Source: Bacteroidota bacterium (GTDB taxonomy: Bacteria > Bacteroidota > Bacteroidia > Bacteroidales > GCA-2748055). Taken from it: a stretch of DNA of 45,067 nt. The stretch covers positions 1 through 45,067 of the forward strand of contig JAIFNN010000178.1 of the NCBI GenBank assembly GCA_020047715.1, read 5' to 3'. Positions 16,574-42,246 of the stretch are shown piece by piece. Within the stretch, counting starts at the first letter, position 1; every line of letters starts with the position of its first letter. The notes beneath the pieces were generated by a model. The model searched no databases, had not been told where the DNA came from, and worked only from the letters and a program-made list of their open reading frames with translations. The position numbers were made by a program, and so were the translations under genes.

Positions 16574-19500
16574 ATGAAAATATACAAAGCAATAGTATTT
16601 GTCCTGCTTATCGGTTGGAGTCTCAGCAATGCTTCAGCTCAAAATCAGGCGGGCGACAGGATAAATCTCGAGAGTGAAGCAGGCATGCGGAAAGGCACCA
16701 TTTTCTTTGCCCCTGAAACAGATTTAGCCTTTCATCAGACAGCCATTTCCAGCAACGAGATATTTGGGAGCGAAATATATACAACCTGGGGAACCATTGA
16801 AAAAAATGAAGGCGTTTATAATTGGGCCACCATCGATAACCTAATCGGACGATACAAAGCCGTTGGAAAAAAAGTTGCTCTAAGAATTGCTACTGCCAGT
16901 TTCTCTATTAATGATTCACCAGATTACCTGTTCAGCAAGTACAATATACGGCGCATAGTTGCCGGTTACTGGGAAAACTTTGAGAAGGGCGATAAAGGAT
17001 ATATTATTCATGGAACGAAGACTGCAAATGCCATATCTGGCTCATATTCCCTTCAAATGGCTACTGAGGTTGCCCTTCCTGTAATTGAGACAGGTGCGAC
17101 TCATAATCTTAATGTGCAAACAGGGATCATGAATCCAAGTTTTGGCCCGACAAAAACGGTTTACCCTCTTTATTCGCCGGGGTTTTGCGCTCAGTTTGAC
17201 TTTAAAGCCAATACGGCTACAACATTTTATGCGAAGGCATATTCAAAAAGTCTGGGGGCATCGAGTGTGATTTATAAGGAATGGACTTCAAATGCAGGCG
17301 AAACCGGTTCCCGCACCCTGGAATTTTTCCCGTTAAACAGTTTAAGTGATTATCATGTTGAAATTGGAATTGTAAAAGGAGATCTGACCATAGACAACAT
17401 CAACATCTGTGACATGAAAACTGCCTATTATTCGGGAACGCTTTGTTTCCCAAATTATCTGGATACCATTTTTGAACAGCGGTATGAAGTTTTTATTAAG
17501 GCACTTGCAGCAAAGTACAAAGACGAAGAAACCCTGAATTCAATCTGCATAGGCGGGTACGGTCGCTGGGAGGAAATGACCATCAGCGATGATGTTGAGC
17601 CCAATCGTTTTGAAGACCAGTGGCCAACTTTCGGATTTACAAATGATAATTACATCAATCATATTAAATGGTGTATCGATACATACAAAAAACATTTCCC
17701 AACAAAGAAATTATTTACTGGTGCGGTAGGCTGGTCAACGGACTACTTTCGAGATCAGAATCTGATTGAATGGCAGGTTGGCGGATATGCAGCCAGAAAT
17801 GGTGTAAGCATAAAGTATAACGGATGGCAATCGATGTGCAGCGAATGGGGATCTGAAGCCACAGCCTTTTTCTACCTGATAAACAGATTCAAATATGAAC
17901 CGACTATCTGGGCTATGTTTGAGGAAGGCGGACAGATTAACAATACTCTTTCCGAAATAATGGGGCATCCCATAAGCCTTTTTAACAGAGCAATTCTCGA
18001 TGGAATAGATTATTACTGGGTTTATTCTACCGATCTGGGCCAGACATATTTTAACCGTTATGAACATTATGCAAACGAGATGGCCGGTTCGGGCTTAATT
18101 ACTAAGCTGTACAACTATTTCGGCGGATATAATTATTATTCCCCATGGGTAAAAAAGGACTACCTGCACAAAAATATCTGGATGGGAATATTCCAGAACG
18201 ACCTTCAGGAAGGAACAAAATGGACTTATACAACGATAAATGGTCAGAAGGCGGTACAAACAAATGCAGCAAACCACCGGATTTATCTGAGCATCGATGA
18301 TCGGCAAAAGTACAACGAAATGTATGGGGCAATTATGACTCTTGATTACCTTGACCAGGGAACTGATAATTTTAAAATTTACGGTGTTTCACCTATAGGT
18401 TTTATGGAATTAGCCACCATAAAAAAAACAAATTCAGGAACCTGGAAATCAGTAAGTCTTAAAGATAATGGATGGGGATCAGCCATTAACAATGGAGGCA
18501 AAGATATTTTAAATGAAATTCAGATTGATGACCTGAGTGATGGAGTGGAAACATTGCAATCGATTGAAATTAATTATGTTCCGGGAATTGAATGGCAGGA
18601 ACAAGTAGTGCAGTCAAATTTGCTGGTAAGCGGAAACACTGCTTCATTGAATTCGGATTATACTTTTAATGTATCTGTTCCGGATAATCCCTCCATTAGT
18701 GGAATTGCAGTTAATGTCAGCCCGGTAAGTACAGGATATGTGAATATTGCAGCAACAGTTACAGCACTTGTTGACGGAGTTACTGTAAGCCTTTCAAATA
18801 AAGATTTTTACATGCCTCAGAAAGAAGATTGGTTCTATATTCCGGTGGGGAGGGTTCCCGATGCAGAGAGTTACAAGATTGTGTTGCACACTGATTTGGG
18901 CAGTGCCACAATTAATCTGGGAGCAGACAATAAACCGGCTTATCGTGTTTATTCTTTCATTACGGAACCTGGTGTGCAGTCAGGCGGAAATGCAGAAGGA
19001 GTTATCGAGGCCATGAAACCTTTCAGTGTACTTCAGGTCCCGGGTCAGGCGAACAATAAACTAAGCCTTTTCAGAAAATTGCCGGATGGCAGCAAAATTA
19101 AAATGGCTGAAATCAGGGTAAACGAAAGTGGTGTAGCTGTTTTTGAGCCGCAGTCTGCAGGAAGATATGAACTTCTCAATTCGGGAGGACTCCGGCTGAG
19201 TGCAATACCAAATTACCTGAAACGACTTTCAGTGTCCAAATCTCCTGTCAGGAGTATTAAAGGTGTTTTGGTAAAGGAATTCAAGGGAGATAGCGCTTTT
19301 TTGGTTGTCAGTGGTTTGACAGCTTGTGAAAACGATAATCTGGGTTTTCATGCTCTTCTTTCAGCAGAGAATCCTGAACTTTTGCTTCCGGATCCAATGT
19401 CATTGCTCAGCAGCACTGCCCATAAATTTCATCTGGTTATTAAAAATGAGACGAATTCCTCCTTATCAAAAGTATATTGGAAAACTGATAAAAAAGATTT

Positions 19501-20314
19501 TTGCGAGGAAAACTCAATGCTGATTCCTATTGTTCCAAACGATACTGAATACCGCGAATACATCTACCCAATTGGTGAGGAAAGCGGGTGGACTGATGTT
19601 ATTACGGGACTCAAATTTCTGCCGGTATGCGGACATACTGATATTGGAAAAATCCACATTTTTGCAATAGGGCTCAGAAGCGGGAATACCACTCCTAATG
19701 CCTTTGGTGAAAAACTGGAGCCCTTGCTTACTGATTTTACAGTAAATGCCATGCTCGAAATATCTGGATTATTGCTTGATGGAGGGACAAATTTTACCGA
19801 AAAATCAGTTATTCCGGTTTCTTATGAATTTGAAGGCAGGTTACCAACAGAATATTTGATTAGTGAAAATGCTGATTTTGCTGGAGCTGCATGGCTGCCT
19901 TGTTCCAATAACATTGAATTTGCATTTTCGCCAAATCCGGGCAGGAGAAAAGTTTTTTTTAAAGTCAGGGATTCCCTCGGAGAAGCAAATACCCTGAGTT
20001 CAGAAATTATCTTCAAGTCCCCTCCCGAAAAACTTGATGCTTCTGGAAAAATCCATGCCATGGCCAGTGTATTTCCAAATCCTGTAAATATGAAAGCAAA
20101 TGTATCCGTTGAATATCCTGATAGCTCTGCATTTGCTAACCCATTTGAAATCTATCAGGTAACAATATTGACTCTTACAGGTACAGTTCTTGGAAATTCC
20201 AGCCAGGTAGGGAATACTTTTTCAATTGATATAAGTGAGTATCCAAAAGGTGCACTAATGGTGAAAATGGTTGGGAATGAAAATTCATTTACCAAAATAA
20301 TAATTAAACAATAA
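16574..20314 (+). CDS. Giant TIM-barrel putative glycoside hydrolase with inserted CBM-like module and T9SS tail (paralogue 1)
   Basis: 1246 aa. Signal peptide to about 22 (ends ASAQ). A clan GH-A-like barrel begins at about residue 30 (TTWGTIEKNEGVYNWATID, then GKKVALRI). It is interrupted at about 136-280 by a beta-sandwich that looks like a galactose-binding/CBM4_9 module (WENFEKGDKGY ... SGSYSLQM ... DNINICD), and resumes with FPNYLDTIFEQRYEVFIKAL and IGGYGRWEEM. E334 (with E333) in RWEEM and E450 in FEEGGQ are the best acid/base and nucleophile candidates. This layout recalls beta-galactosidase-like/DUF4832-type proteins, where a G.WGE motif takes this place. Several beta-sandwich modules follow (about 540-1080), then an Ig-like module and a T9SS sorting domain (about 1170-1246). 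Substrate unknown. The protein is likely on the cell surface. Confidence 0.65.
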   Translation: MKIYKAIVFVLLIGWSLSNASAQNQAGDRINLESEAGMRKGTIFFAPETDLAFHQTAISSNEIFGSEIYTTWGTIEKNEGVYNWATIDNLIGRYKAVGKKVALRIATASFSINDSPDYLFSKYNIRRIVAGYWENFEKGDKGYIIHGTKTANAISGSYSLQMATEVALPVIETGATHNLNVQTGIMNPSFGPTKTVYPLYSPGFCAQFDFKANTATTFYAKAYSKSLGASSVIYKEWTSNAGETGSRTLEFFPLNSLSDYHVEIGIVKGDLTIDNINICDMKTAYYSGTLCFPNYLDTIFEQRYEVFIKALAAKYKDEETLNSICIGGYGRWEEMTISDDVEPNRFEDQWPTFGFTNDNYINHIKWCIDTYKKHFPTKKLFTGAVGWSTDYFRDQNLIEWQVGGYAARNGVSIKYNGWQSMCSEWGSEATAFFYLINRFKYEPTIWAMFEEGGQINNTLSEIMGHPISLFNRAILDGIDYYWVYSTDLGQTYFNRYEHYANEMAGSGLITKLYNYFGGYNYYSPWVKKDYLHKNIWMGIFQNDLQEGTKWTYTTINGQKAVQTNAANHRIYLSIDDRQKYNEMYGAIMTLDYLDQGTDNFKIYGVSPIGFMELATIKKTNSGTWKSVSLKDNGWGSAINNGGKDILNEIQIDDLSDGVETLQSIEINYVPGIEWQEQVVQSNLLVSGNTASLNSDYTFNVSVPDNPSISGIAVNVSPVSTGYVNIAATVTALVDGVTVSLSNKDFYMPQKEDWFYIPVGRVPDAESYKIVLHTDLGSATINLGADNKPAYRVYSFITEPGVQSGGNAEGVIEAMKPFSVLQVPGQANNKLSLFRKLPDGSKIKMAEIRVNESGVAVFEPQSAGRYELLNSGGLRLSAIPNYLKRLSVSKSPVRSIKGVLVKEFKGDSAFLVVSGLTACENDNLGFHALLSAENPELLLPDPMSLLSSTAHKFHLVIKNETNSSLSKVYWKTDKKDFCEENSMLIPIVPNDTEYREYIYPIGEESGWTDVITGLKFLPVCGHTDIGKIHIFAIGLRSGNTTPNAFGEKLEPLLTDFTVNAMLEISGLLLDGGTNFTEKSVIPVSYEFEGRLPTEYLISENADFAGAAWLPCSNNIEFAFSPNPGRRKVFFKVRDSLGEANTLSSEIIFKSPPEKLDASGKIHAMASVFPNPVNMKANVSVEYPDSSAFANPFEIYQVTILTLTGTVLGNSSQVGNTFSIDISEYPKGALMVKMVGNENSFTKIIIKQ

Positions 20315-20361
20315 ATAGAAAAAATTAGAACTGATTTAAAAATCTATAAAAGAAAAGTCTG

Positions 20362-20425: not shown

Positions 20426-23400
20426 ATGAATGGAGCGAAATTTATACTGTCATTATTTTTCATAACCAGCTATATAAGTATAGTGACAGCACAAAAAATG
20501 TCTGGTGATAAAACTTATGCTGAAAGTGAAGGAGGAATGCGCAAAGGAATTATTGTAAAAGGCATTGAGGCAGATTTCACTTTTCATAACGTTGCTTCAA
20601 CAAGCAGAGAAATCTATGGAACCGAAATTCACTCTACATGGGGTGAAATTGAAAAAGTTGAAGGAGTCTATGATTGGTCATATATTGATCAGGTTATAGC
20701 ACAATATAAAGCGCAGGGGAAAACAATTGGCCTGAATCTGGTAACTGCCAATTTTTCAATCAACGATTCCCCGGATTATCTGTATAGTAAATATAACATC
20801 AGACGTGTTGTTTCGGGTTATTGGGAAAATTTCGAAAAAGCAGATAAAGGGTTTGTTCTTCATACTCCAAAAACTTCAGTGAATCCGCTTAGCGGGAGTT
20901 TTTCATTGCGACTGGCATCAGCTACAAAAGCCAAAATGATAGAAACCGGTGTGAGCCATATTCTGAATCGGGCTACCGGGATTATGAATCCCTCGTTCAA
21001 TCCAAAGAACACTGTTTATCCTTATCCTTCTGTCGGTTTCTGCCTGCAATTCGATTTCAGAGCAAATTCAGCAACTACCTTTTACGCCAAAGCAAGCTCT
21101 GCAACACTAGGCGAACAGAATGCCTTTTATCAGGAGTGGAACGCAAATGCCGGTGAATCCGGTTCAAAAACATTTCAGTTTTCGCCTTCATCCAATGATT
21201 ACCGGGTCGAGATTGGCATTGTCAGTGGTGATTTAAGTATTGACAATGTAAATATCTGCGATATGAAAACCGCTTACTATGTCGGAACACTTTGTTTTCC
21301 AAACTATTTCGACAGCAAATTTAAAGAGCGTTATGAAATTTTCATTCAGGCAATCGCCAATAAATACAAAGATGAACCAGGATTAAGTTCTGTTTGCATA
21401 GGTGGTTACGGTCGTTGGGAAGAAATGACACTATGCGATGATTTGGAGCCTAACCGCTTTGAAGACCAATGGACTACCTATGGTTTTACAAATCAAAAAT
21501 ATATTGAGCACGTGCAATGGTGCATCGATACATTTAAAAAGTATTTTCAGAATAAAAAACTCTATACAGGTGCAGTTGGATGGTCGACCGATTCATTTCG
21601 CGACCAGATACTTATTGACTGGGCAGTTCAGGGCTATGCTGCAAAAAACGGTGTTGGCATCAAATATAATGGCTGGCAAACCAAATGCAGCGAATGGGGT
21701 TCTGGAGGGGTGTCGATTTTCTACCAGCTCAACCGATATAAGCAGGATACCGCTGTTTTAACTTATTTCGAAGAGGGTGCTCAACTGAACAATTCATCAC
21801 AGTTTCTTACTCAGATTATGGGGCATCCGGTAAGTCTTTTAAACAGGGCAGCAATAGATGGAATTGACTACCAATGGATGTATCAGCTTGATGCAGAAGA
21901 TCCTTACACAACCCGTTACTTCCATTACTCCAATGAAATGGCAGGCAGTGCTTTATTCACCAAATTGTATAATAAATTTGAAGGGAACGTTTATACCTCA
22001 CCCAAATCAGGCAACACTAGTGTATTAAAGAATATCAACAACGGACTTTTCCAAAAAGATTACGACGAAGGAACAAAATACACCTACACAACATGGAACG
22101 GTGAAAAAATGATACAAACCAATACAGGAAACAGCCGTATTGAATTAAGTATCGATGACCGGCAAAAATATAATGGAATGTATGGTGCAGAGTTGGTTAT
22201 GGATTATCTGGATAGTGGTACTGACGAATTTAAAGTATTAGCCTATTATGATAATGGAACTTTTTCGGAACTTATTAAAGTAAAGAAAACCAACAGCAAA
22301 CAATGGAAAATATTGAATTTGAAGGACAATGGCTGGACTTCAAAAGTTAAAAGCCGGGGGGTAGATAAGTTGATTGAAATTGCAATTGACGATATGGGCG
22401 ATGGCATCGAGTCACTCCGTTTGGCCGAAATTAATTACGTTCCTGCGCGTGAGTGGCAGGAAAATGTAATTCAAAGTAATCAACCGGGTAGCGGTTTATC
22501 TTCCTCAATATCCGGTAATTTTACTTTTGAAATTACGAACGACCAGAATAAACCGGTCAGTAGCATGTCGGTCAATGTAAGTCCCGCATCACAATCGTAT
22601 GTTAACATAATTGCTGAAGTATATGCGAAAATTAATGGATATTACATTCTGGCAAATAAAAAAGACTTTTACATGCCGCAAACTGAGGATTGGTTTGATA
22701 TTCCACTTGCGGGCAAACCTTTCGCAACGGCTTACAGGGTAATTCTGACAATGGATATCGGCTCGGCAAATATTAATCTCGGTGCAGATAATAAACCAGC
22801 TTACAGGTTGTTTTCTTTTGTAAATGAAACCGGCGACGCAATCGATGCAGGAACTTCAGGAAACTATATTATTGAATCGCTAAAACCATTTTGGAGTCTG
22901 TCAATGAATGATAATTCCCAGACTAATCTCATACTGAAAAAGCAACTTGTCGACGGAACATTTATTGAAGCATCTGCAGTTTATGGAAATGGGAATCAGG
23001 TTTATTTTGAACCCCAGACAGCTGGGAGGTATATGCTTATAAATTCGTCGGGTAATTCAATTTCAGCCACACCGAATTATCTAAAGCGTATTTCGAAACC
23101 TAAATTTCCTGTCCGGAATGTTAGGGGAAATCTTTTTATGGGATTTAAAGGCGACAATGCATTTAGAGTAGTTTCAGGTCTGAAAAATGGCGCAAATGAT
23201 GGCAACGGTTTTCATGCATTGGTTTCAGAGGCGAATCCGGTGTTGGAAACCCGTAAACCTTTCAAATATGAGACTATAAAAAATCAGGACAGGCTTCATT
23301 TTGTCATGAAAAACGAAACTGGTGCCATGTTTGCCAAAATCTACTGGAAAACAACGAAAGCAGATTATTCTGAAGAAAATGCAATGTTAATGCCCGTTGT

Positions 23401-24151
23401 ACCTAATGACAATGAATACCGGGAATACAGCTACGCATTTGTCCGGGAAGCAGGGTACAGAGACAGCATTACTGGCTTCCGGTTTGTTCCGGTATATGGA
23501 TTTACCAATGCTGGTAAAATCCACATATATAAAATTGAAATTCGAAAAGGAAATACGTTTTCAAGTGCCTATGCCGATTCACTGCTATTGGAGCAAACAG
23601 ATTTTAATGTGTTTACCCAACTCGGAATAAAAAGTTTTAAATTGAACCAAGGCTCAGATTTTACAGAACAATCGCTAATTTCAGTAACAAATGAAGTGGT
23701 TGGTGGAATTCCGGCTGAATACATAATCAGCGAAAAAGAAGATTTTACTGATGCAAACTGGATGTCTTACAATACTGCTTTTGATTATACTCTTTCATCT
23801 GAGCCGGGATTGAAAAAAGTTTACTTTAAAGTCCGGGATGGAATATTTGAAACTCCCTCAGTAAGCGCTTCTATTGTGTTTAAAACACCAAATGAAAAGT
23901 TGGATGCTTCCGCAAGGACACATGCAAGTTTCTATCCTAATCCTGCACAATCAAGTGTAAGAATCGATTGTACGGATAACCCTGTCGAAACTTTTGATGT
24001 CTCAGTTATGTCCGTTTCTGGCGTTATTTACGAACAACTCAAAGTGTCTGGTAATTTCAATTTAAATGTAAGTAATTACCCAAAAGGTGCCTTACTGGTT
24101 AGAATTGAAAACAAAAAGGGAATAATTCAAACCGTAATTATAAAAGAATAG
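20426..24151 (+). CDS. Giant TIM-barrel putative glycoside hydrolase with inserted CBM-like module and T9SS tail (paralogue 2)
   Basis: 1241 aa, colinear with the preceding gene over its entire length, with roughly half or more of the residues identical by eye. Signal peptide ends near VTAQ. Same plan: barrel start (STWGEIEKVEGVYDWSYID), inserted CBM-like module (WENFEKADKGF ... DNVNICD), barrel continuation with GGYGRWEEM (E332/E333) and FEEGAQL (E449/E450), accessory beta modules, an Ig-like module (IISEKEDFTDANW ... YFKVRDG) and a T9SS sorting domain (FYPNPAQSS ... VIIKE). Both motif pairs are 117 residues apart, as expected for strands 4 and 7 of a clan GH-A barrel. Probably a surface enzyme with the same chemistry and a different fine specificity. 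The GH106 gene follows after 24 bases, so this may be the first gene of the long downstream operon. Confidence 0.65.
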   Translation: MNGAKFILSLFFITSYISIVTAQKMSGDKTYAESEGGMRKGIIVKGIEADFTFHNVASTSREIYGTEIHSTWGEIEKVEGVYDWSYIDQVIAQYKAQGKTIGLNLVTANFSINDSPDYLYSKYNIRRVVSGYWENFEKADKGFVLHTPKTSVNPLSGSFSLRLASATKAKMIETGVSHILNRATGIMNPSFNPKNTVYPYPSVGFCLQFDFRANSATTFYAKASSATLGEQNAFYQEWNANAGESGSKTFQFSPSSNDYRVEIGIVSGDLSIDNVNICDMKTAYYVGTLCFPNYFDSKFKERYEIFIQAIANKYKDEPGLSSVCIGGYGRWEEMTLCDDLEPNRFEDQWTTYGFTNQKYIEHVQWCIDTFKKYFQNKKLYTGAVGWSTDSFRDQILIDWAVQGYAAKNGVGIKYNGWQTKCSEWGSGGVSIFYQLNRYKQDTAVLTYFEEGAQLNNSSQFLTQIMGHPVSLLNRAAIDGIDYQWMYQLDAEDPYTTRYFHYSNEMAGSALFTKLYNKFEGNVYTSPKSGNTSVLKNINNGLFQKDYDEGTKYTYTTWNGEKMIQTNTGNSRIELSIDDRQKYNGMYGAELVMDYLDSGTDEFKVLAYYDNGTFSELIKVKKTNSKQWKILNLKDNGWTSKVKSRGVDKLIEIAIDDMGDGIESLRLAEINYVPAREWQENVIQSNQPGSGLSSSISGNFTFEITNDQNKPVSSMSVNVSPASQSYVNIIAEVYAKINGYYILANKKDFYMPQTEDWFDIPLAGKPFATAYRVILTMDIGSANINLGADNKPAYRLFSFVNETGDAIDAGTSGNYIIESLKPFWSLSMNDNSQTNLILKKQLVDGTFIEASAVYGNGNQVYFEPQTAGRYMLINSSGNSISATPNYLKRISKPKFPVRNVRGNLFMGFKGDNAFRVVSGLKNGANDGNGFHALVSEANPVLETRKPFKYETIKNQDRLHFVMKNETGAMFAKIYWKTTKADYSEENAMLMPVVPNDNEYREYSYAFVREAGYRDSITGFRFVPVYGFTNAGKIHIYKIEIRKGNTFSSAYADSLLLEQTDFNVFTQLGIKSFKLNQGSDFTEQSLISVTNEVVGGIPAEYIISEKEDFTDANWMSYNTAFDYTLSSEPGLKKVYFKVRDGIFETPSVSASIVFKTPNEKLDASARTHASFYPNPAQSSVRIDCTDNPVETFDVSVMSVSGVIYEQLKVSGNFNLNVSNYPKGALLVRIENKKGIIQTVIIKE

Positions 24152-29391: not shown

Positions 29392-30525
29392 ATGAATTCA
29401 AGAGAACGAGTATTAAGCGCCTATAACAGAACCGGCTACGACCGCATTCCTATCAAACACGAAGGAACGCCGGAAGTGAATCGCATGATAATGCAGCATT
29501 TCGGTCTCACCAACATGAACCAGCTATTGAAGGTACTTGGTGATGATTTCCGCTATGTGGAAGCTGTGTATACCGGGCCTGAGCTGAAAAAATTTCCCGA
29601 CGGAAGTTTCGAAGGATACTGGGGGGAACGATATAAATATATGGAGTTCGGAACTGGTAAATACATGGAATCCTGCTATCAGCCTTTTGCCGGAGTGGAT
29701 ACACTTGAAAAACTTGATCGCTCGCATTTTCCTGAAGCAAGCTGGTTCGATTACTCAACCATTCGTGAACAGTGCGAAAACCTGCGGGGAGAATTTGCCG
29801 TCTGTTTTGGCGGTGCCGGTGATATGGATTTTATCAACAGCATCTCCCGCGCAAAAGGCATGGAAGAAGTGATGATTGATATGATGATGGAAAACGAAGC
29901 CTTTATCGCTATTCTTGAGCAGCGGTTTAAATTCTATTTCGAAATGCACGAAAATGCTCTCAAGGCAGCCGGTGGTTTAATAGATTTCATGCATATTGGC
30001 GAAGATTTAGGTAATCAGCGCGGACCTATGATTGGAATGGACTTGTTTGAACAGTATTTTGCCCCGAAATTCAAAATGTATTTCGACATGGTGCATAGCT
30101 ACGGAGCTAAAGTGATGATGCACATGTGCGGAACGGTTGATGCTTTTCTCCCCCGGCTTATCCAACTGGGCCTCGATATTCAGGATGTCGTTCAGCCTAC
30201 AACACCGGAAATGGATATCGCCTTTCTGCAAAAGAATTTTGGCAATAAACTTTTTTTCCAGGGAAGCATGGATGTGCAGAAAGAACTGGCCTTCGGTACG
30301 GCCGATGAAGTCAGAATGCAAGTGCGCCGGCGTCTTGAGTTATTTCCAAAGGGAGGAATGTTCCTGGGGCCTTCGCATGCGATTCAATCCGGTTCCCCAC
30401 TTGAAAATATTCTCGCAATGTATCGTGAAGCCGGCAGTCTGACTGAAAAAATTGACAATTCTATTTTGTCCATAAAAGGAGAGGAAGATAAAGTGGACGC
30501 AGTCAATCTGGCTAAATTGTTTTAA
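29392..30525 (+). CDS. URO-D-fold protein (MtaA/CmuA-like methyltransferase family), member 1
   Basis: 377 aa, no signal peptide; this and the next gene are the only clearly cytoplasmic products in the window. The N-terminus MNSRERVLSAYN and the C-terminal FLGPSHAIQSGSPLENILAM are typical of the uroporphyrinogen-decarboxylase superfamily branch that includes corrinoid:coenzyme M methyltransferases. H244-x-C246 in MMHMCGTVD matches the zinc-binding HxC motif of MtaA-type enzymes. The third ligand, a cysteine in MtaA, is replaced here by H329 in GPSH. The substrate-binding Arg motif of true HemE is not seen, so porphyrin decarboxylation is unlikely. No corrinoid protein is encoded nearby. A methyl transfer or demethylation step on an imported product is an inference. 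Confidence 0.78.
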   Translation: MNSRERVLSAYNRTGYDRIPIKHEGTPEVNRMIMQHFGLTNMNQLLKVLGDDFRYVEAVYTGPELKKFPDGSFEGYWGERYKYMEFGTGKYMESCYQPFAGVDTLEKLDRSHFPEASWFDYSTIREQCENLRGEFAVCFGGAGDMDFINSISRAKGMEEVMIDMMMENEAFIAILEQRFKFYFEMHENALKAAGGLIDFMHIGEDLGNQRGPMIGMDLFEQYFAPKFKMYFDMVHSYGAKVMMHMCGTVDAFLPRLIQLGLDIQDVVQPTTPEMDIAFLQKNFGNKLFFQGSMDVQKELAFGTADEVRMQVRRRLELFPKGGMFLGPSHAIQSGSPLENILAMYREAGSLTEKIDNSILSIKGEEDKVDAVNLAKLF

Positions 30526-30548
30526 CTTCCTTCAAAAAAATTAGTATT

Positions 30549-31634
30549 ATGAACCAAAGAGAACGATTTATTAAAACACTTAATGGAGAGCCAACCGACA
30601 GACCTCCGGTTTACGTTAGCCTTGTGCCTCAATTAGCCAAAAGGCTAAGTGATCATCTCGGAGTTCCTTACGAAAAGCCGATTTCTTCATTGCTTGGTAG
30701 CCGTATTTCATTTAACGGGTTGCTTACAGGAATGGGAGTTGATGCCATCGGCGTCGCAGCCTGTTTTCCTGATAACGCGCAGCCTTTTCTCCGGCCTGAT
30801 GGAATTACCATCAATGAATGGGGGATGGGTACAAGACCGGTTGGATTATATGATGAGTTTGCCGTTTATCCTCTTTCACATGTGCAGTCTGTTGAAGATA
30901 TTGAGAAGTATCCTTTTCCTGAAGTTGATGCTCCCGGTCGTTTCCGCTTTGCTAAGGAAACCATTGCGAAATATGGTAAGGACTTTGGTATCATCGGCGA
31001 TCTCGAGTGCGCAATTTATGAAACCTCATGGTATCTCGTAGGACTCGAAAAACTGCTCATGGATATGGCAATGGAAGAACCTTATGTTGATGCATTGTTC
31101 GACAGAGTGGCGGGAATAACCACTGAAACCGGTTTACGCCTCATCGATTGTGGAGTGGATATGCTCTGGTGTGGTGACGATTTTGGCACTCAGACAGGTT
31201 TAATTATGGATCCTGATATGTTTGATCGGTACTTTGCTCCCAGAATTAAAAAAATGTTTTCTGCATTCCGCGCAGCCAACCCGAATATAAAAATTGCATG
31301 GCATTCATGCGGCTCCATTACTCCGATTATTCCAAAGTTTATCGAATTGGGACTTGATTATCTTAATCCCCTGCAACCTCTGGCAACAGGAATGGATGCT
31401 GAAAATATCAATATATTGTTTGGAAAGAAGATTAACTACTTCGGAGCTATTTGTGTTCAGGATCTTCTGCCGAACGGCACTCCTGAAAAAATAAAATCAG
31501 AAGTTAAAAGGATTGCAGGAATACTTGGTAATGGCGGAGGATATATTCTGGCTCCCGCACATAATATCCAGGATGATACTCCTGTTGAAAATGTTCTGGC
31601 ATTTTTTGAAGCAGCAAAAGAACTTGAAGTGTAG
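30549..31634 (+). CDS. URO-D-fold protein (MtaA/CmuA-like methyltransferase family), member 2
   Basis: 361 aa, cytoplasmic. It starts MNQRERFIKTLNGEPTDRPP, the classic opening of URO-D-fold methyltransferase-like proteins. H252-x-C254 in AWHSCGSI and H338 in LAPAHNI mirror the HxC...H pattern of the neighbouring gene. Other shared segments are MDPDMFDRYFAPRIKKMF and FIELGLDYLNPLQP. The two proteins are related but diverged through most of their length, so they may form a hetero-pair or act in sequence. The gap between them is 23 bases. Neither encodes a fused corrinoid domain. A demethylation of a methylated sugar or aglycone is possible, but nothing in the sequence identifies a substrate. 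Confidence 0.78.
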   Translation: MNQRERFIKTLNGEPTDRPPVYVSLVPQLAKRLSDHLGVPYEKPISSLLGSRISFNGLLTGMGVDAIGVAACFPDNAQPFLRPDGITINEWGMGTRPVGLYDEFAVYPLSHVQSVEDIEKYPFPEVDAPGRFRFAKETIAKYGKDFGIIGDLECAIYETSWYLVGLEKLLMDMAMEEPYVDALFDRVAGITTETGLRLIDCGVDMLWCGDDFGTQTGLIMDPDMFDRYFAPRIKKMFSAFRAANPNIKIAWHSCGSITPIIPKFIELGLDYLNPLQPLATGMDAENINILFGKKINYFGAICVQDLLPNGTPEKIKSEVKRIAGILGNGGGYILAPAHNIQDDTPVENVLAFFEAAKELEV

Positions 31635-31664: not shown

Positions 31665-33152
31665 ATGAAAAAATCACCTGAATTATATGTAAGCTCCGGA
31701 ATCCTTAATCCGGGTTTTATTTTAATCGTATTCCTGTTATCCGCACCGTTTTATACAAGCTTTTCTCAGGATAGACCTAAACAGAAAAACAAAACAACTC
31801 AGATAAAAGATAATTCCAATACCCTTGGATTTGATATTTCCACTATGCCGAATTTCTGCGGACACGAACACTGGGGATGCGTGCAATCGAATGGTGGCTA
31901 TGTACCCGAACTGAATGGTTTTCGTGCTGACATATTTGCAGGCGCCTCTCCCCAGAGTCCTACCTCAATATGGGATATAATTCTGGATCCGTATCTGACC
32001 GGCTGGTTTTTTGGAAACGGTCAAAACCCATTTGCCATTGCAAAGGCTGCGGGTTACAATACTTTTGACGAATGGTGGAAAGTAAATCCTCAGCAAGCTT
32101 TATCCGGGTTTCAAACCATGGCATCCTCCTCAATTATGACAGGCACGTTCCAGTGCACTGCCAAAGGAATAGAATTCTTATATGGGACGGATATCACAGG
32201 TTTTGATCTGAACAACTGGAAAAAGGCCGATTCTTTAATCCGGATAAGTTATTCTGATATGTTCACCTGGTACGAAACCGCAATGAAAAAGGCTCATTTC
32301 ACAGAATTAATTCGCCCCGTTCAGCCTGAATTTTATTTGCAGCAACAGTCTGCCGAAACTGCCAAACATGAACTCTCTTTCACTCACACCATACTCCGGA
32401 TTGATCCCTTCATGGAATTCTGGAAAGCAGATAGTCCACGACGCGATAATCTTGCAAAAGTTGCAGATATTGAACCGATAGACGCAGCAAGCTGGAGAGG
32501 TTTTATTACGTTTTATTTCGATCTGGCCGAAAAAAATCATACCACCGGTATCAAGCAATTGCAGGCCTACCTTCGCGATTTAAATTATAAACCCAGAAAA
32601 GATGAGGAGGTGAAATTCCGGGGAAACCTGTCAGCTGAAGAAGTTATTGTTTTTCAGGACTGGGTAATGAATGAATGCTGCCGGCAGGCAAACGAACGAA
32701 AATGGGTACATCAGATGCATGTTGGTACGCATAATATGCCTTCATCAAGTCCTTTGCCACTGGCCGATCTTGGTGCACGGTATCCTGATATGAAAATCGT
32801 AATGCTTCATTGCTGGCCCTATTTTAAAGAGGCAGCTTTTCTGGCAAAAAACAGACCCAATTTTTATATCGATAATTGCTGGATGCCTATTCTGAGCCCT
32901 GAATTTTTTTCTCAGGCATTAGACACCTATCTTAACTATGTGCCATACAACAAGATTATGCTTAGCCATGATGCTACAACCATTGAAATGGCTGTAGGCT
33001 CTTCATTATTTACCCGTGAAATTCTGGAGGAGAAATTGCTTCATCAGAAGGACATGCTTAAACTAAGCAGCAGCCAGGTGCGCGCCGCGGCTCTGGATAT
33101 GCTTCAGAATAATGCGGTAAAGGTTTATGGAATAGGCGAATTGGCGAAATAA
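31665..33152 (+). CDS. Secreted amidohydrolase-superfamily metalloenzyme
   Basis: 495 aa. An N-terminal hydrophobic segment (about 15-35, PGFILIVFLLSAPFYTSFSQ) is the export signal. The metal site of the amidohydrolase barrel can be traced: H67-E-H69 in CGHEHWG (strand 1), H349/H352 in HQMHVGTHN (strand 5), H382 in MLHCWPY (strand 6) and D436 in LSHDAT (strand 8). This arrangement is seen in the amidohydrolase_2 group (decarboxylases and lactonases) and in uronate isomerase-like proteins. Export of such an enzyme next to rhamnosidases is unusual. The substrate is unknown. Hydrolysis of a lactone, ester or amide, or a decarboxylation, is plausible. It lies 30 bases after the second URO-D-fold gene. 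Confidence 0.75.
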   Translation: MKKSPELYVSSGILNPGFILIVFLLSAPFYTSFSQDRPKQKNKTTQIKDNSNTLGFDISTMPNFCGHEHWGCVQSNGGYVPELNGFRADIFAGASPQSPTSIWDIILDPYLTGWFFGNGQNPFAIAKAAGYNTFDEWWKVNPQQALSGFQTMASSSIMTGTFQCTAKGIEFLYGTDITGFDLNNWKKADSLIRISYSDMFTWYETAMKKAHFTELIRPVQPEFYLQQQSAETAKHELSFTHTILRIDPFMEFWKADSPRRDNLAKVADIEPIDAASWRGFITFYFDLAEKNHTTGIKQLQAYLRDLNYKPRKDEEVKFRGNLSAEEVIVFQDWVMNECCRQANERKWVHQMHVGTHNMPSSSPLPLADLGARYPDMKIVMLHCWPYFKEAAFLAKNRPNFYIDNCWMPILSPEFFSQALDTYLNYVPYNKIMLSHDATTIEMAVGSSLFTREILEEKLLHQKDMLKLSSSQVRAAALDMLQNNAVKVYGIGELAK

Positions 33153-35676: not shown

Positions 35677-37125
35677 ATGAAAAACAACAAATCTTCAGCT
35701 TTGGGTCTCGAATCAAAATGGATTCCTGCAGGACTGATTTTAATTGTGTCGGTAATTCTATGTGCTGGTATAATCAGTTGCGCTGGCACTTCTGATAAAT
35801 CCACCAATGCAAATAACAGTTATGTCGCCAACAAAAACACATCCCTCTGGAAATATATTGATTCCCTTAAGGTAATTGATACCCACGAGCATATCAGCAG
35901 CGAATCAGAATTGCTGGGATTGCAGATCGATATTTTCAATCTCTTCATTCCATACATTGTAGATAACCTCGAATCTGCAGGAATTACTGCTGATGAAATG
36001 GCATTGATGAAAAACGGACAGGCAGCTTTCAATGAACGTTGGGGAGTCTTCAATAAATATTATCCTTCCATTCAGAGTACCACATACATTCTGGCTTTGC
36101 AAACATCCCTGAAAGAGCAATATCATTTAAAAGACTGGAGTCTGGAAGAGTGCCAGCGCGTCACAGAACTTCTAAAGCAGGATTTTGCCACCAAAGGCTT
36201 TATGCAAAAGTTTATGGATAAAAATAAAATTGAATCCATGCTTACTTTCAGATCACCCTCGCTTGAAGACCTGCGGAGAGATTATGGCGACAATAAAATC
36301 ACGATTGTTCCAACTGTGAATAATATTTGTGTGCTTGAAGCGAAAAGTTTGGATGACATTTCTAAAATTACCGAAATGCCAATAAAAAATCTGGATGATA
36401 TCCTCGCCGGAATTGACAAACTATTCAAAGAATATGATGCCCGTGGAATTAAAAATATAAAGTTTGGCAGTGCCTACAATCGTGAGATTAACTACAGATC
36501 AAGAACCAGATCAGAAGCAGAAGCCTCTCTTCAGAAAATTTTGGCTACACCCTTTGACTATTCAAATGCTGTGCCCAATAAATATTATGTGTTTACCCTT
36601 TCAGATTACCATATTCCACTCGATGATTATCTTGGAGTTTACATGATTTCATTGGCTGAGAAATACAATATGAATGTTATTTTTCATGTGGGGATATTTG
36701 CCTGGAATTTCAATTCTGTAAAAAACAATCATGCATCAAGTCTGGAATGGGTAATTAAGAATTTCCCTAAAGCCAATTTTGTCATACTTCATGCAGGCTA
36801 TCCGTTTTTTGATGAAGCAATCCTTTTGGCTAAATATTACCCCAATGTATATATAAACATGACCTGGGATCATATTATTGAGCGAGCTAAAAGTATAGAG
36901 GTAATAAAAAGCTATGTTGAGATGTTACCAACCAGCAAAATTCATCTTTTTGGCGGGGATTACCTCTTTCCTCAGCAAATTTACGGTAATGTAATTTTTA
37001 CCAAGGAAAACCTGTATATCGCTTTGTCAGATTTAATTGAAAACGGAACACTGAATGAGGAACAGGCTAAAAAAATTGCTTACGATTGGTTGTATGCGAA
37101 TCCAAAAGCTTTTTATTACAGGTAA
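35677..37125 (+). CDS. Lipoprotein amidohydrolase-superfamily metalloenzyme
   Basis: 482 aa. A membrane segment (about 17-34) ends in the lipobox IISC, so the mature protein should be lipid-anchored. Barrel metal ligands: H70-E-H72 in DTHEHI, H337 in VIFHVGIF, H372 in VILHAGYP and D428 in FGGDYLFP. A helical region at about 85-200 precedes the second half of the barrel. The C-terminus (KKIAYDWLYANPKAFY) is typical for amidohydrolase_2-type proteins. It is only distantly related to the secreted amidohydrolase at 31665, so the two may act on different bonds. Substrate unknown. Confidence 0.76.
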   Translation: MKNNKSSALGLESKWIPAGLILIVSVILCAGIISCAGTSDKSTNANNSYVANKNTSLWKYIDSLKVIDTHEHISSESELLGLQIDIFNLFIPYIVDNLESAGITADEMALMKNGQAAFNERWGVFNKYYPSIQSTTYILALQTSLKEQYHLKDWSLEECQRVTELLKQDFATKGFMQKFMDKNKIESMLTFRSPSLEDLRRDYGDNKITIVPTVNNICVLEAKSLDDISKITEMPIKNLDDILAGIDKLFKEYDARGIKNIKFGSAYNREINYRSRTRSEAEASLQKILATPFDYSNAVPNKYYVFTLSDYHIPLDDYLGVYMISLAEKYNMNVIFHVGIFAWNFNSVKNNHASSLEWVIKNFPKANFVILHAGYPFFDEAILLAKYYPNVYINMTWDHIIERAKSIEVIKSYVEMLPTSKIHLFGGDYLFPQQIYGNVIFTKENLYIALSDLIENGTLNEEQAKKIAYDWLYANPKAFYYR

Positions 37126-37149: not shown

Positions 37150-39582
37150 ATGAAAAAAATTCAATTCTCAGTCCTGTTAATTGTGTCTTTGTTTTGCCAG
37201 CTCAAAATTAATGCGCACGATTTACCTCATACCCAGGTAACCGTAAATTTTAAAATTTATGAAGAGGATACGAAAAAGATTACACCTGTCATAATGTGCA
37301 TTCAAAATGCCGAAACAAAAGAAGTCGTTACCCCTCCTTACGGAAAGGTTGTGAAAGAATTTTCAACGGTCGACGATTTCGTTTCAGGCATCATGTTTAG
37401 CAGTGATCGAAACTGGGTCGGGCCTGTAAGGAAAACAACGGGTAAAGGAGTGGATGCCCGACGTAGTTTTGAGTACGATATGGCTCAGCCGGTCCCCTTT
37501 TGGAGGGCACCGGCATTGTATCAGACTTCGGGGAATTTCTCCATTAATCTGAAGCCCGGTAAATATTTGCTAAGTATTTCACACGGTTACGAATATATAC
37601 CGGTAGTAATGAAGGAGTTCGAAGTGCCTGCCGATAATCATGAGTTTTACATGAATTTGACACTGAAACGCTGGATTGATATGCCCGCTATGGGTTGGTA
37701 TTCAGGCGATGTTCATGTGCATCATCCAACAACGAAACCTGAGTATAAACAATTCCTCATCAATTTTGCCAAAGCTGAAAATTTGCATGTTGTCAATACT
37801 TTGAATATGGGATATCATCGTTTTCAGGGTGATTCTAAAACAGGCGTGGATTTTGAACAGGAAGGTTTTGGAAAAAAATTCAGAACACAGGAAGGGAATT
37901 ATTGCCTGGTTTCGGGTCAGGAAGATCCACGGAGCATATATGGACATATTATTGGACTAAATCTCTCGGAATTTGTCAGAGATACCGCGCATTATGATTA
38001 TTACGACCGTGCTTTCGAGGATATTCACAACCAGCCGGGGGCATTGGTTGGTTTTGCCCATCTGGCCTTTAATGGTTGTGATATTTTGCAGGGATTGCCC
38101 TGGTTTGTAACCACAAATCAAATTGATTTTATCGAAATATTGCAATTGACAAAGATAAATACCCTGGGTTACTACGATTATCTGAACCTGGGATTCAGAC
38201 TTACAGCTGCAGCCGGAAGCGATCTTCCCTGGGCCGCAACCATTGGCGAGGTAAGAACTTATGTTTACACAGGAAAGCATTTTTCTCCCGATAAATGGTT
38301 TAAAGGTCTGAAAAAAGGGAACACATTTGTTTCTAATGGCCCTATGTTGTTTTTTGAAGCAGATGGTAAACTACCGGGATCAGAAATCCAATGTAAAAAA
38401 GGCGCCACAACCCACCTGAGTGTTAAAGCCCGATCGAATGAAAAAATTGGCCGGATAACAAGGGTTGCTTTGTACAATAACAACGGCTTGGTGCGTGAAA
38501 TGCAAAATCCGGAAAATGCAGAAGCTATTGATCTGAATATGGATCTTCAAATTAATAATAGCCAATGGCTTACTGCAGTTGTATATTGCAGTAATGAATC
38601 CGTAGCTCATACTTCTCCAATATATTACGTTGTTGATGGTCAGCCCACATGGAGTGCTGAAAAAGCACCTGAAATTATTCGCCGACATTTCCAGATAATG
38701 GATGATGTTCAAAAGGATACCAAAGATGCCGGTATCATAGAAAGACTAAATAACGCGCGTGCATTTTACCGCGCCATGTTAAAACAAATAGGAGCGGCTG
38801 AATTAACATACGAAACCATTGAGCAAAAAATAGCATCAGATAAACTGTCAAAACCTTTGGAAATTGACAAGGTACTTGTCACTGGCGGCGATTTTATAAT
38901 GGGCGATCCAAACAATAACGGCGATCAGCCAATGCATACAGTAAAAGTTTCAGATTTTGAGATCGGAAGAATGGAAGTGACCAATTATCAGTTCGCAAAG
39001 TTTTTAAATGACCAGAAAATCGATTACACAACAAACTTCAAGGGAAAATGCATGGTGATTGCTTTTGGTCCATATACCCGACTTGAAAACGTAAATGGAA
39101 TATGGCAATCCAGAAAAGGTTATGAAAATTTTCCTGTTGTAAACGTCACCTGGTGGGGCGCGTATGAGTTCTGCAAATATGCCGGAGGAAGGCTGCCAAC
39201 CGAAGCTGAATGGGAATATGCGGCAAAAGGAGGCCGGAATTCGAATCACTACCTCTTCGCAGGGTCAAATGATGTAACTGAAGTTGCATGGTTTGGACTT
39301 AACAGCATTAACAGACCAAACGAAGTGGCGAATCTCAAACCGAATGAACTGGGCTTGTCGGACATGAGTGGAAATGTCAACGAATGGTGCGCAGATTGGT
39401 ACGAAGAATATCCTGCAAACGATCAGATCAACCCTTCCGGTCCGGAAAACGGCGATTACAGGATATTCAGAGGGGGCTCACATCATGAGGTGGATTCCAA
39501 TTGTCGCACCACCAGACGTAACGCCTATTTCCCTGACGCTGGCATCAATTTTATCGGCTTCCGGATTGCTTTTTCGAAATAA
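37150..39582 (+). CDS. CehA/McbA-like PHP metallohydrolase fused to an FGE/SUMF1-like domain
   Basis: 810 aa. Signal peptide to about 22 (ends KINAH). After a beta-rich N-terminal part (about 25-180) comes YSGDVHVHHPTT (D187, H189, H191, H192), the metal-binding start of the CehA/McbA branch of PHP hydrolases, with further likely ligands in GQEDP, GFAHLAFNG and AAGSDLPW. Residues about 575-810 form a formylglycine-generating-enzyme-like domain (GGDFIMGDP, EVTNYQFAKFL, GRLPTEAEWEYAAKGG, GNVNEWCADWY, FRGGSHHEVDSNCRTTRRN). In true FGE two cysteines four residues apart bind copper. Here the first is Glu (E780) and only C785 remains. No sulfatase gene is in the window. The FGE-like part is therefore more likely structural or binding than a sulfatase activator. 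Substrate of the hydrolase is unknown. Confidence 0.78.
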   Translation: MKKIQFSVLLIVSLFCQLKINAHDLPHTQVTVNFKIYEEDTKKITPVIMCIQNAETKEVVTPPYGKVVKEFSTVDDFVSGIMFSSDRNWVGPVRKTTGKGVDARRSFEYDMAQPVPFWRAPALYQTSGNFSINLKPGKYLLSISHGYEYIPVVMKEFEVPADNHEFYMNLTLKRWIDMPAMGWYSGDVHVHHPTTKPEYKQFLINFAKAENLHVVNTLNMGYHRFQGDSKTGVDFEQEGFGKKFRTQEGNYCLVSGQEDPRSIYGHIIGLNLSEFVRDTAHYDYYDRAFEDIHNQPGALVGFAHLAFNGCDILQGLPWFVTTNQIDFIEILQLTKINTLGYYDYLNLGFRLTAAAGSDLPWAATIGEVRTYVYTGKHFSPDKWFKGLKKGNTFVSNGPMLFFEADGKLPGSEIQCKKGATTHLSVKARSNEKIGRITRVALYNNNGLVREMQNPENAEAIDLNMDLQINNSQWLTAVVYCSNESVAHTSPIYYVVDGQPTWSAEKAPEIIRRHFQIMDDVQKDTKDAGIIERLNNARAFYRAMLKQIGAAELTYETIEQKIASDKLSKPLEIDKVLVTGGDFIMGDPNNNGDQPMHTVKVSDFEIGRMEVTNYQFAKFLNDQKIDYTTNFKGKCMVIAFGPYTRLENVNGIWQSRKGYENFPVVNVTWWGAYEFCKYAGGRLPTEAEWEYAAKGGRNSNHYLFAGSNDVTEVAWFGLNSINRPNEVANLKPNELGLSDMSGNVNEWCADWYEEYPANDQINPSGPENGDYRIFRGGSHHEVDSNCRTTRRNAYFPDAGINFIGFRIAFSK

Positions 39583-39594
39583 TAAACTTGTGTT

Positions 39595-42246
39595 ATGTAC
39601 TTAAAGATTGTAAAAGTAGGCCTTACTATCATCTTTTTGTTTTTTCAGGTTATTGGGTTTTCACAAAGTCCGGAAACAAAAAGCAAAAATGGATTGGTCT
39701 ATTTCTATGGGTATCCATTCAATACTAAATATGAAATCAATCAGATTTCTCAGATCCCCGGCATTATGCGGGCTGAGATTTCGATAGAATGGAAAGATGT
39801 TTTTATCGATAGAAATCATTTCAACTGGGATTTTATTGATAACAATATTGAGATCTGGAAAAATCAGGGAAAAACAGTTATTCTCAGGTTTATGACTGCC
39901 AATAACTCTACCTATTCAACATCTTCAGAGCTAATTGATCAGGAGAGAATCAGACTTGTTGGCGAAGGTTTTTTCTCGGATTTCGAGAATGACACACGCA
40001 AGGACGGATATGAATTGGTTCAGGCACAAATTCTTAGGGAGAATTTCACTTCAATTGGAAAGGATTGCGCGGTTCTCGTATCTAATGCAAAGCAAAATTC
40101 CTCCCTCCTGCGAACCAATCCTGATATTAAATTCAATTCCAATGCTTCATACCTGGTGCAGTTTGACTATAAAATCCTGCAATTTATTGATAGAAAGGAA
40201 GCCGGTAGTTTCAAAATCGTTTTCAAATCCAAATCAAAGGAGAAAGTTAGTATTTTCAAAACTTCTTATGTGAAGGAGGGAGAATTGAGTTTGTGCACAA
40301 GTGAAATTAAACTCGACTCCATTGAGGATTACTTCTTAAGCATAGAAGCCGAAAACATAAGCGACTGCCTTATCGATAATATTAATGTCATCCAATCTTC
40401 CGACAGCAGAGGCAGGAGAGTAGCTTTCCCCAATTATTTTTCACCCAATTTCAAATCTGCCTACATCCGGTTTATGGAAGAACTGGCAAAAAAATACAGC
40501 AAAAATCCTGCTGTTGATGCGATTACTGTAAGCGGAATAGGCCGTTGGGAGGAAATGCTGCTGAATGCCAATGAGGAAGGTGTCTTGGATGTTCAGGAAT
40601 CGATTTTTCGTCAGTGGAAGGCTTATGGATACACGGATGTGAATTACCTCAAAAATGTTGTTGAATGGTCGATCGATTTGTCGTTAAAATATTTCCCCGA
40701 CAAGGAACATATTCTTCAAATATCGCCCATGAACAACGGATATGAAAACGAAGATTTCATTTATCGGCGAGCTGCATCCATTGCTGTTTCAAAAGGAGTA
40801 TCGATTAAACAAAATGGAATGAGCGAAAAATACGATATTTGGGCGGCTACATCCGATCCGGCATTTATTATGAACCGTTATCGCAATAGGAATAATGTAA
40901 AACGCTATTATGAAACAGGAGGACAAATATGCAATAACACTTTAAATGCTATGGGACACCCGGTTTCACTATTCAATCGGGTTGCCATCGACGGTGTAAA
41001 TTACCTGTTCCTTTACAAGGCTGATATTCTAGAGCCAAACGTTCAAAAGTATTTTTCTTATTTCGATAGTTTGATACAGAAACCGTCAATTTCAACACTT
41101 TACACAAAACTTGGTGAATATCCCCTTGCCAACCGGAAAAAACGAATGCCTCATTTGCTAGACACCATTGTCTATCATAACAATTGGTTGGGCATCCGTC
41201 AATATGAGGAAACTGAAGCAAAAGCGGATTACAGTATTGACGAAAAAACCCAAAAGAAAGGGGTGAAAACCAATACAAATAATCCCAAAATTCTCTTTGA
41301 TATTGACGATCGGGTTATGTACAATGGAATGTCAAATCCAATATTGACAGTCGAATACCGGGATACCGGGATTGATAGTTTTAGTGTTTATATTTTAAAC
41401 AGATATACATGCATAACTGAAAAAGTCAGTTCTGTTCGGAAATCTGATTCTGGTAACTTCTTAAAAAAATCCATTCCTCTTGGAAGAAGTCTGGATGTTT
41501 TTGAAAACCATAAGGAGGTAAAACCTGAAATTGTAATTCATGACAATCAGGATGGATATGAGTTTATCAGCTCCGTTGTAATTGATTTTGTGCCGGTAAA
41601 TGAGTTCAGAATGAGCGTGATATCTGAAAGCAATGTCGCAAAAAAGCCACTGATTTTGAAAGATGCGTATGATACATTGCAAAGGACCATCCCTCTTTCT
41701 TGTAACAAACCTGTTTCAAAAGCCGAGTTTGTTTATTTTGATAATGAATTTGGTACCAAGACTGATGTATATGCTACACTGCAATTGGTAAATAGTAAAA
41801 ACACCAGAGTGGTTTCAAAAAAACAATATTATATCGGGGGAGATAATGAGGTAGTACCCTTGCCGGTTGCTGATAATATGATCCCGCAGCAAGCCATCCT
41901 TACTGTCTTTTCCGGAAAGGGACAGGTCGGAGCATACAGTGCCGGAGATGGAGAGATGGCTTATCGTTTATACAGTTATGACAACCATAAAAGCTCAGAT
42001 TTTGGATATGAAAACGGGTATTTGGATGTAAAAGAATTTTTCAACGGCTTTGAATTTTCGCCCGATGCGGATACTAAAAATATTGAAGTAAAAAAGATGC
42101 TGCCTGATCAGTCTGAAATGAATATTGAGTTTTCTGTCTCTGGAAATACTATTTATTTTCAGCCACAGACAAAAGGACGCTACAGAATTATTTTAAACAA
42201 CCAGACGCTGAATCCAATATCAATTTGTGGGTTGGAAGGAAGGTGA
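39595..42246 (+). CDS. TIM-barrel putative glycoside hydrolase, short paralogue 3 without T9SS tail
   Basis: 883 aa. Signal peptide MYLKIVKVGLTIIFLFFQVIGFSQ. It follows the plan of the two giant paralogues: barrel start (ISIEWKDVFIDRNHFNWDFID), inserted CBM-like module (FFSDFENDTRKDGY ... CLIDNINVI), FPNYFSPNFKSAYIRFMEEL, SGIGRWEEM (E319/E320) and YETGGQI (E440), then beta modules. It stops after the module that ends GRYRIILN, so the Ig-like and sorting domains of the paralogues are absent. Sequence identity to them is clearly lower than they share with each other, but RWEEM, the [FY]E.GGQ site and GHP[IV]SLFNR are kept. Probably periplasmic, acting on products made outside. It starts 12 bases after the previous gene. 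Confidence 0.65.
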   Translation: MYLKIVKVGLTIIFLFFQVIGFSQSPETKSKNGLVYFYGYPFNTKYEINQISQIPGIMRAEISIEWKDVFIDRNHFNWDFIDNNIEIWKNQGKTVILRFMTANNSTYSTSSELIDQERIRLVGEGFFSDFENDTRKDGYELVQAQILRENFTSIGKDCAVLVSNAKQNSSLLRTNPDIKFNSNASYLVQFDYKILQFIDRKEAGSFKIVFKSKSKEKVSIFKTSYVKEGELSLCTSEIKLDSIEDYFLSIEAENISDCLIDNINVIQSSDSRGRRVAFPNYFSPNFKSAYIRFMEELAKKYSKNPAVDAITVSGIGRWEEMLLNANEEGVLDVQESIFRQWKAYGYTDVNYLKNVVEWSIDLSLKYFPDKEHILQISPMNNGYENEDFIYRRAASIAVSKGVSIKQNGMSEKYDIWAATSDPAFIMNRYRNRNNVKRYYETGGQICNNTLNAMGHPVSLFNRVAIDGVNYLFLYKADILEPNVQKYFSYFDSLIQKPSISTLYTKLGEYPLANRKKRMPHLLDTIVYHNNWLGIRQYEETEAKADYSIDEKTQKKGVKTNTNNPKILFDIDDRVMYNGMSNPILTVEYRDTGIDSFSVYILNRYTCITEKVSSVRKSDSGNFLKKSIPLGRSLDVFENHKEVKPEIVIHDNQDGYEFISSVVIDFVPVNEFRMSVISESNVAKKPLILKDAYDTLQRTIPLSCNKPVSKAEFVYFDNEFGTKTDVYATLQLVNSKNTRVVSKKQYYIGGDNEVVPLPVADNMIPQQAILTVFSGKGQVGAYSAGDGEMAYRLYSYDNHKSSDFGYENGYLDVKEFFNGFEFSPDADTKNIEVKKMLPDQSEMNIEFSVSGNTIYFQPQTKGRYRIILNNQTLNPISICGLEGR

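Follow-up and report, generated by a model that had tools for sequence, protein, structure and literature searches.

Three paralogous barrel proteins with an inserted beta-sandwich, putative glycoside hydrolases of an unnamed family, in a rhamnosidase and galactosidase locus of a Bacteroidota bacterium

Contig JAIFNN010000178.1 of the draft genome GCA_020047715.1 (Bacteroidota bacterium, order Bacteroidales; here G000) was analysed as a whole, and this complete contig of 45067 bases (C148 of G000) is hereafter referred to as the window. It carries three related genes, P1, P2 and P3, whose products are predicted to fold as (beta/alpha)8 barrels interrupted by a beta-sandwich that resembles carbohydrate-binding modules (CBMs). 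Here, we describe these genes and their relatives and consider the P1-P3 proteins as candidate glycoside hydrolases (GHs).

The three genes and their relatives

The features of the three genes, with lengths in amino acids (aa), are as follows.

16574..20314, + strand: P1, 1246 aa; signal peptide, predicted (beta/alpha)8 barrel with inserted beta-sandwich, C-terminal beta domains and type IX secretion sorting tail
16985..17428, + strand: P1 inserted CBM22/CBM16-like beta-sandwich, residues ~138-285 (both models; Foldseek)
17564..17578, + strand: P1 RWEEM (331-335), past barrel strand 4 (motif and model; E333/E334 invariant)
17918..17935, + strand: P1 FEEGGQ (449-454), barrel strand 7 (motif and model; E450 invariant)
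20069..20305, + strand: P1 Por_Secre_tail, the type IX secretion sorting domain (31.6 bits, cut-off 27)
20426..24151, + strand: P2, 1241 aa; tandem paralogue of P1, alike in architecture; type IX secretion sorting tail (33.6 bits)
21413..21427, + strand: P2 RWEEM (330-334; motif)
21767..21784, + strand: P2 FEEGAQ (448-453; motif)
39595..42246, + strand: P3, 883 aa; distant paralogue with orthologues in the loci L008 and L009
40009..40395, + strand: P3 inserted CBM-like beta-sandwich, residues ~139-267 (P3 model, CBM22 structural match)
40543..40557, + strand: P3 RWEEM (317-321), past strand 4 (motif and P3 model)
40909..40926, + strand: P3 YETGGQ (439-444), strand 7 (motif and P3 model)

A preliminary description, made from the letters of this DNA, had singled out these three open reading frames as related, which is confirmed at the positions and lengths listed. 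Judged by sequence, P1, P2 and P3 are true paralogues, with 60% identity between P1 and P2 across the catalytic half and 27% between P1 and P3 over 838 aligned residues (E 1e-72), a span that carries the homology far beyond the barrel, as far as about P1 residue 870. A single RWEEM and a single [FY]E.G[GA]Q motif are found in each protein, and in a six-frame translation of the window RWEE[ML] and [FY]E.G[GA]Q both occur exactly three times. The motif starts lie 118, 118 and 122 residues apart in P1, P2 and P3, and the Glu-to-Glu spacing is 116, 116 and 120, matching within about one residue the 117-121 originally given. The C-terminal ~190 residues of another window protein with a type IX secretion tail (139-2268) match P1 residues 1059-1245 with 39% identity, a shared module in a protein that is otherwise different.

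A profile made from the three sequences was scanned against about 85,000 species genomes and picked up five relatives (L005-L009); such a scan relies on conserved peptide patterns and can miss divergent members. L005 and L009 come from one Paludibacter metagenome-assembled genome (MAG), L008 from another Paludibacter MAG, and L006 and L007 (JAKPNJ010000299.1 and JAKPNJ010000239.1) from one MAG labelled Bacillota. Short matches, and no other full-length member, were seen in 100 related genomes and in 395 genomes of the class, and a scan of viral contigs returned no relative. The family is rare. Its eight sequences separate into one group of P1, P2, L005, L006 and L007 (40-64% identical) and another of P3, L008 and L009 (57-65%), with 23-30% identity between the two; both groups are carried by MAG RS341 as well as by the window, and the split must therefore be old. 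The P1-type genes of the Bacillota-labelled MAG are 40-46% identical to the Bacteroidota members, which may reflect horizontal transfer or mis-binning.

The invariance first claimed for the two motifs extends to all eight members (23-65% pairwise identity), with the strand-4 motif in the form RWEE[MIL] and [FY]E.G[GA]Q unchanged. R331, W332, E333, E334, E450 and Q454 (P1 numbering) are the same in every member, and further invariant residues include E67, D88, R126, E137, K414, N416, H465, N471, R472 and D476.

Predicted fold and the inserted beta-sandwich

AlphaFold2 models were built for P1 (mean predicted local distance difference test score, pLDDT, 67; predicted template modelling score, pTM, 0.65) and for P3 (mean pLDDT 67, pTM 0.69), in which the insert and the first half are predicted with high confidence, and the second half and the vicinity of both motifs with poor confidence. 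Both models run from strands 1-3 through a beta-sandwich to helix 3, strand 4 and onward to strand 8, forming a (beta/alpha)8 barrel. In comparisons with VIA-align, GH14 beta-amylases ranked first for P1 (Z 21.1, root-mean-square deviation (rmsd) 3.5 Å, 302 residues aligned), above GH35 (Z 19.5) and GH42 (Z 18.7), whose rows lie at about 18-19.5, and likewise for P3 (Z 15.3, rmsd 3.6 Å, 255 aligned), above GH35 (Z 13.4) and GH42 (Z 13.3), whose rows lie at about 12-13.4. The triosephosphate isomerase (TIM) barrel that had been expected is thus predicted in both models, with Z of 15-21 to barrel glycosidases. The raw top rows from Foldseek (pyruvate kinase, Cry proteins and GlfT2 for P1; toxin subunits and others for P3) were discarded, since these alignments were either composite or partial, for the most part at rmsd >13 Å or else spanning the beta-sandwich alone.

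Strand 4 of the P1 model comprises residues 321-326, with E334 past its end, and strand 7 residues 448-451, with E450 within it; the equivalent Glu residues of the P3 model stand past strand 4 (288-294, model numbering) and at the end of strand 7 (419-421). The preliminary description had placed an acid/base on strand 4 and a nucleophile on strand 7. These placements fit the secondary structure of both models, at low pLDDT, while the name nucleophile for E450 is not supported, as it goes beyond the evidence by taking the mechanism to be retaining.

The insert of about 130-150 aa lies between barrel strand 3 and helix 3 in both models, which were made from different query sequences, and bears out the beta-sandwich of ~140 aa proposed to sit inside the barrel. 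Both inserts have a jelly-roll beta-sandwich fold of the CBM22/CBM16/CBM4 type: that of the P3 model matches CBM22 with Z 11.7 (rmsd 2.8-2.9 Å, 143-144 aligned) and CBM16 with Z 10.2, and that of P1 matches the CBM22 structure 1h6x with TMt 0.58 in Foldseek. No CBM family is among the Pfam matches of family members up to E 5. The insert retains a D-N pair (D274, N275), and since no aromatic residue in it is invariant across the eight members, sugar binding by this module is putative. In GH10 Xyn10C-type xylanases of Bacteroidota, CBMs are inserted at the same place, between strand 3 and helix 3, and can be removed with retention of catalysis (PMC7848910). As modelled, the CBM-like module inside the barrel of P1-P3 is a new case of this known arrangement.

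Conservation also bears on whether these barrels might be non-catalytic and serve solely to bind glycans, as could be suggested by the CBM-like modules together with several beta domains, and by the lack of a known activity. Even at 23% identity, however, E333, E334 and E450 are unchanged, and the insert has no invariant aromatic residue, which is the reverse of the pattern of a pure binder and makes this explanation highly improbable.

Family placement and proposed catalysis

Apart from the sorting tail of P1 and P2, P1-P3 have no above-cut-off match in Pfam. The statement that they could not be placed in a characterised GH family agrees with this result, as no curated Pfam family spans the domain, a comparison that covers those CAZy families that have a Pfam model. 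The model of GH42 (PF02449) is matched by seven of the eight members (best E 1.4e-7). P1 and P3 score 16 bits against its cut-off of 21; L006 (22.2 bits) and L007 (31.6 bits) exceed it over positions 32-80 of 376 only, and the match is generally confined to about 40-95 N-terminal profile positions. For DUF4874 (PF16173) the best E is 0.014-0.026, with 14.6 bits in L009 against a cut-off of 30.1. DUF4832 (PF16116) has no Pfam match in the family members, and at E 0.001 the genome of the window yields none for GH14 (PF01373). Searches of PDB sequences with the single proteins gave no matches, and a search with the family profile gave weak N-terminal matches only, mainly to GH42 and GH35.

The barrel with the insert removed was compared by profile (hhalign), with probabilities of 95.3% for a set collected with the DUF4832 model, 94.7% for GH42, 92% for GH14-like proteins and 0.1-1.2% for seven unrelated window proteins, other TIM barrels included. 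A mixed set of small barrels that includes the DUF4832 protein L011 reached 99.8%, a value inflated by selection, as that set had in part been collected with the profile of the P1-P3 family itself, which does not hold for the sets of DUF4832 and GH42. L011 (55.9 bits to DUF4832) is from the same taxonomic family, and its GSYGTWGEAH aligns with GYGRWEEM of the P1-P3 family. The Gly-rich loop ending in W-G-E past strand 4 is invariant in seven aligned DUF4832-type proteins and is aligned as W-E-E in the P1-P3 family; the corresponding strand-4 loop of GH14 chains reads GGPSGEL or GLGPAGEM. The early suggestion to look towards DUF4832 and DUF4874 was therefore well aimed by profile homology and strand-4 motif, the Pfam scores themselves lying below the curated cut-offs. 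P1-P3 are most likely divergent, probably endo-acting members of the DUF4874/DUF4832-type barrel group. The DUF4832 protein SIR_1591 of S. intermedius has glycosidase activity and disperses aggregates that depend on Pel, and beta-amylases and beta-galactosidases are given by its authors as its nearest folds (PMC12345266). The window's genome itself has several DUF4832-type barrel genes (L091, G000:C160, 3895-16545; L093, 2056-4188), of which three lie on contig C160; one carries a CBM_4_9 domain.

Enzymes of clan GH-A have an Asn directly before the strand-4 acid/base Glu. This Asn-Glu pair is missing from all eight members, in which the candidate Glu is preceded by E333 (or by W332, if E333 is the acid). 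Of the clan GH-A-like barrel originally proposed, the (beta/alpha)8 barrel thus stands, whereas the GH-A label is not supported and too specific, given the missing pair, GH14 as the best fold and DUF4832/DUF4874-type proteins as the nearest traceable sequence relatives. The same evidence bears on the proposal that P1-P3 are retaining clan GH-A beta-glycosidases, akin to GH42/GH35 beta-galactosidases, with E334 as acid/base and E450 as nucleophile. GH42 is the Pfam family that nearly all members match, with two relatives above its cut-off, and GH35 and GH42 structures are strong fold matches. Against this, the GH42 match is short and N-terminal and that of P1 is below the cut-off, the residue before E334 is Glu rather than Asn, in a motif like the loops of DUF4832 (W-G-E) and GH14 (GPxGE), and GH14 outscores GH35 and GH42 in both models, so that we consider a retaining GH-A mechanism unlikely.

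GH14 is an inverting family. P1-P3 might accordingly be inverting hydrolases of alpha-linkages, like the GH14 beta-amylases, with E334 as general acid and E450 as general base, and we hold this as possible, if less likely than not: GH14 chains come first for both models, a Gly-rich loop ending in Glu past strand 4 is present in GH14, and the DUF4832 protein SIR_1591 acts on Pel. However, the window's genome has no GH14 Pfam match, fold rank is uninformative on stereochemistry, and the tie of DUF4832 to Pel hydrolysis consists of one protein. The retaining and inverting schemes are two mechanisms inside the explanation that we favour, in which P1-P3 are hydrolases, E334 (or E333) in the loop past strand 4 would most likely be the proton donor, and E450 on strand 7 would serve as general base or nucleophile.

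Gene neighbourhood and comparison with known systems

Other genes of the locus are listed here.

8425..16317, + strand: three GH110-like (GLAA-B) genes and one GH78-like gene, upstream of P1
24176..27424, + strand: GH106 alpha-L-rhamnosidase, adjoining P2 (adjacency repeated in L005)
29392..31634, + strand: two URO-D/MtaA-CmuA-like methyltransferase genes with HxCG motif (context, outside the glycosidase family)
42321..45067, + strand: GH78 alpha-L-rhamnosidase, truncated by the contig end, adjoining P3 (adjacency repeated in L008 and L009)

The three paralogues do lie, as first described, within a rhamnosidase/galactosidase locus, and the cluster appears to serve the digestion of a rhamnose- and galactose-rich glycan. 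Family genes directly adjoin GH78 or GH106 in five of six loci (window, L005, L006, L008 and L009), the sixth, L007, being cut by the contig end. GH78, GH106 and GH110 enzymes are exo-acting by family. Since these named partners are exo-acting, the P1-P3 trio would probably provide the backbone (endo) cleavage. P1 and P2 are displayed through type IX secretion and would cut the glycan first, and P3, in which Pfam detects no sorting tail, may finish fragments in the periplasm.

From these observations P1-P3 are, with fair confidence, secreted enzymes of an unnamed glycoside hydrolase family in which a barrel of DUF4874/DUF4832, GH14 and GH42/GH35-like character is combined with a CBM22/CBM16-like insert. 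In CAZy terms the family would probably count as new, yet its barrel is a variant of known ones and its type of insertion has been seen before. Several points weigh against this interpretation. No activity is known for any family member, and the endo role is deduced solely from the partner enzymes. The models are moderate, with pLDDT <50 at P1 329-345 and 451-465, around both proposed catalytic residues, and both were built on the same eight sequences and are thus independent in query, not in data. The profile alignments can be trusted as far as strand 4, their second halves being unreliable, and equivalence of E450 with residues of the DUF4832 proteins is for that reason not claimed. If assays bear this out, the proteins would establish a glycoside hydrolase family where DUF4832, GH14 and GH42-like barrels meet, a junction that has been little studied. 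They would help to decide whether such barrels retain or invert, and would add to the cases outside GH10 in which a CBM is inserted in the beta3/alpha3 loop.

A gene at 37150-39582 encodes a CehA/McbA-type metallohydrolase fused to an FGE-sulfatase-like domain, and homologous sequence stands just upstream of the P3-type gene in all three P3-type loci (L008 7334-9832; L009 3-917, C-terminal part only). Two Amidohydro_2 genes are also present (31665-33152 and 35677-37125), with relatives near family members in L007 (1777-3309) and L008.

The two URO-D/MtaA-CmuA-like genes between GH106 and P3 both keep the HxCG motif, and one is related to the methylcobalamin:coenzyme M (CoM) methyltransferase 4ay7 (E 2e-11). 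Their counterparts are the most conserved part of the block shared with L008, at 85% and 81% identity versus 55% for P3. The P3 orthologue and GH78 are followed in L008 by genes for a corrinoid protein, a protein with a B12 methionine-synthase activation domain, CobW, a third URO-D protein and the L-rhamnose symporter RhaT. On contig C165, G000 also has a separate cluster that encodes a corrinoid protein, URO-D, homocysteine S-methyltransferase, CobW, an activation-domain protein and RACo. Besides 29392-31634 of the window, the regions of this lead are L008 3416-5694 and 15322-20028 and L097 1256-7915. The combination of the URO-D pair, a corrinoid protein and an L-rhamnose transporter suggests anaerobic, B12-dependent demethylation of O-methyl-rhamnose. 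All these genes could form one pathway, in which an O-methylated rhamnose/galactose glycan is broken down by the new barrels together with the GH78, GH106 and GH110-like enzymes, and the methyl-rhamnose so released is demethylated by the methyltransferases and corrinoid protein. This proposal is speculative and somewhat doubtful. A PhyH-type oxygenase gene in L008 weighs against the O-methyl-rhamnose reading, as does the proposal that related clusters in other anaerobes act in methyl-sulfur or methyl-selenium metabolism (PMC10418091). In marine bacteria 6-O-methyl-galactose is demethylated oxidatively by a P450 (PMC10033563), to which the locus would, if the pathway is real, be an anaerobic, B12-dependent counterpart for methoxy sugars. 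Literature searches for corrinoid-dependent sugar demethylation found none, which does not prove its absence. The linked genes make it testable how anaerobes handle O-methylated sugars without oxygen.

Among known systems, the GH10 Xyn10C/Pm25-type xylanases (PMC7848910) share with P1-P3 a CBM-type beta-sandwich at beta3/alpha3 of a Bacteroidota TIM barrel, whereas the barrel of P1-P3 has no GH10 sequence match and its single module is not detectably CBM4 by sequence. The insert has the fold of CBM22 and CBM16 modules but neither a Pfam CBM match nor an invariant aromatic residue. GH42/GH35 beta-galactosidases have the barrel fold in common with P1-P3, as well as the N-terminal W..iE..eGvydW..iD motif caught by the GH42 model; they differ in that the match extends over a quarter of the profile at most and in that P1-P3 lack the Asn-Glu pair and contain the insert. 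GH14 beta-amylases are the best barrel match in both models and have a Gly-rich loop with Glu past strand 4, while P1-P3 have no GH14 sequence match, possess the CBM-like insert and belong to a rhamnose/galactose rather than a starch locus. From the DUF4874/DUF4832 barrels, such as SIR_1591 (PMC12345266), P1-P3 differ in scoring below the Pfam cut-offs, in having no detectable DUF4832 domain and in bearing the CBM-like insert, and they resemble them in the W-[GE]-E past strand 4 and in profile homology through that strand.
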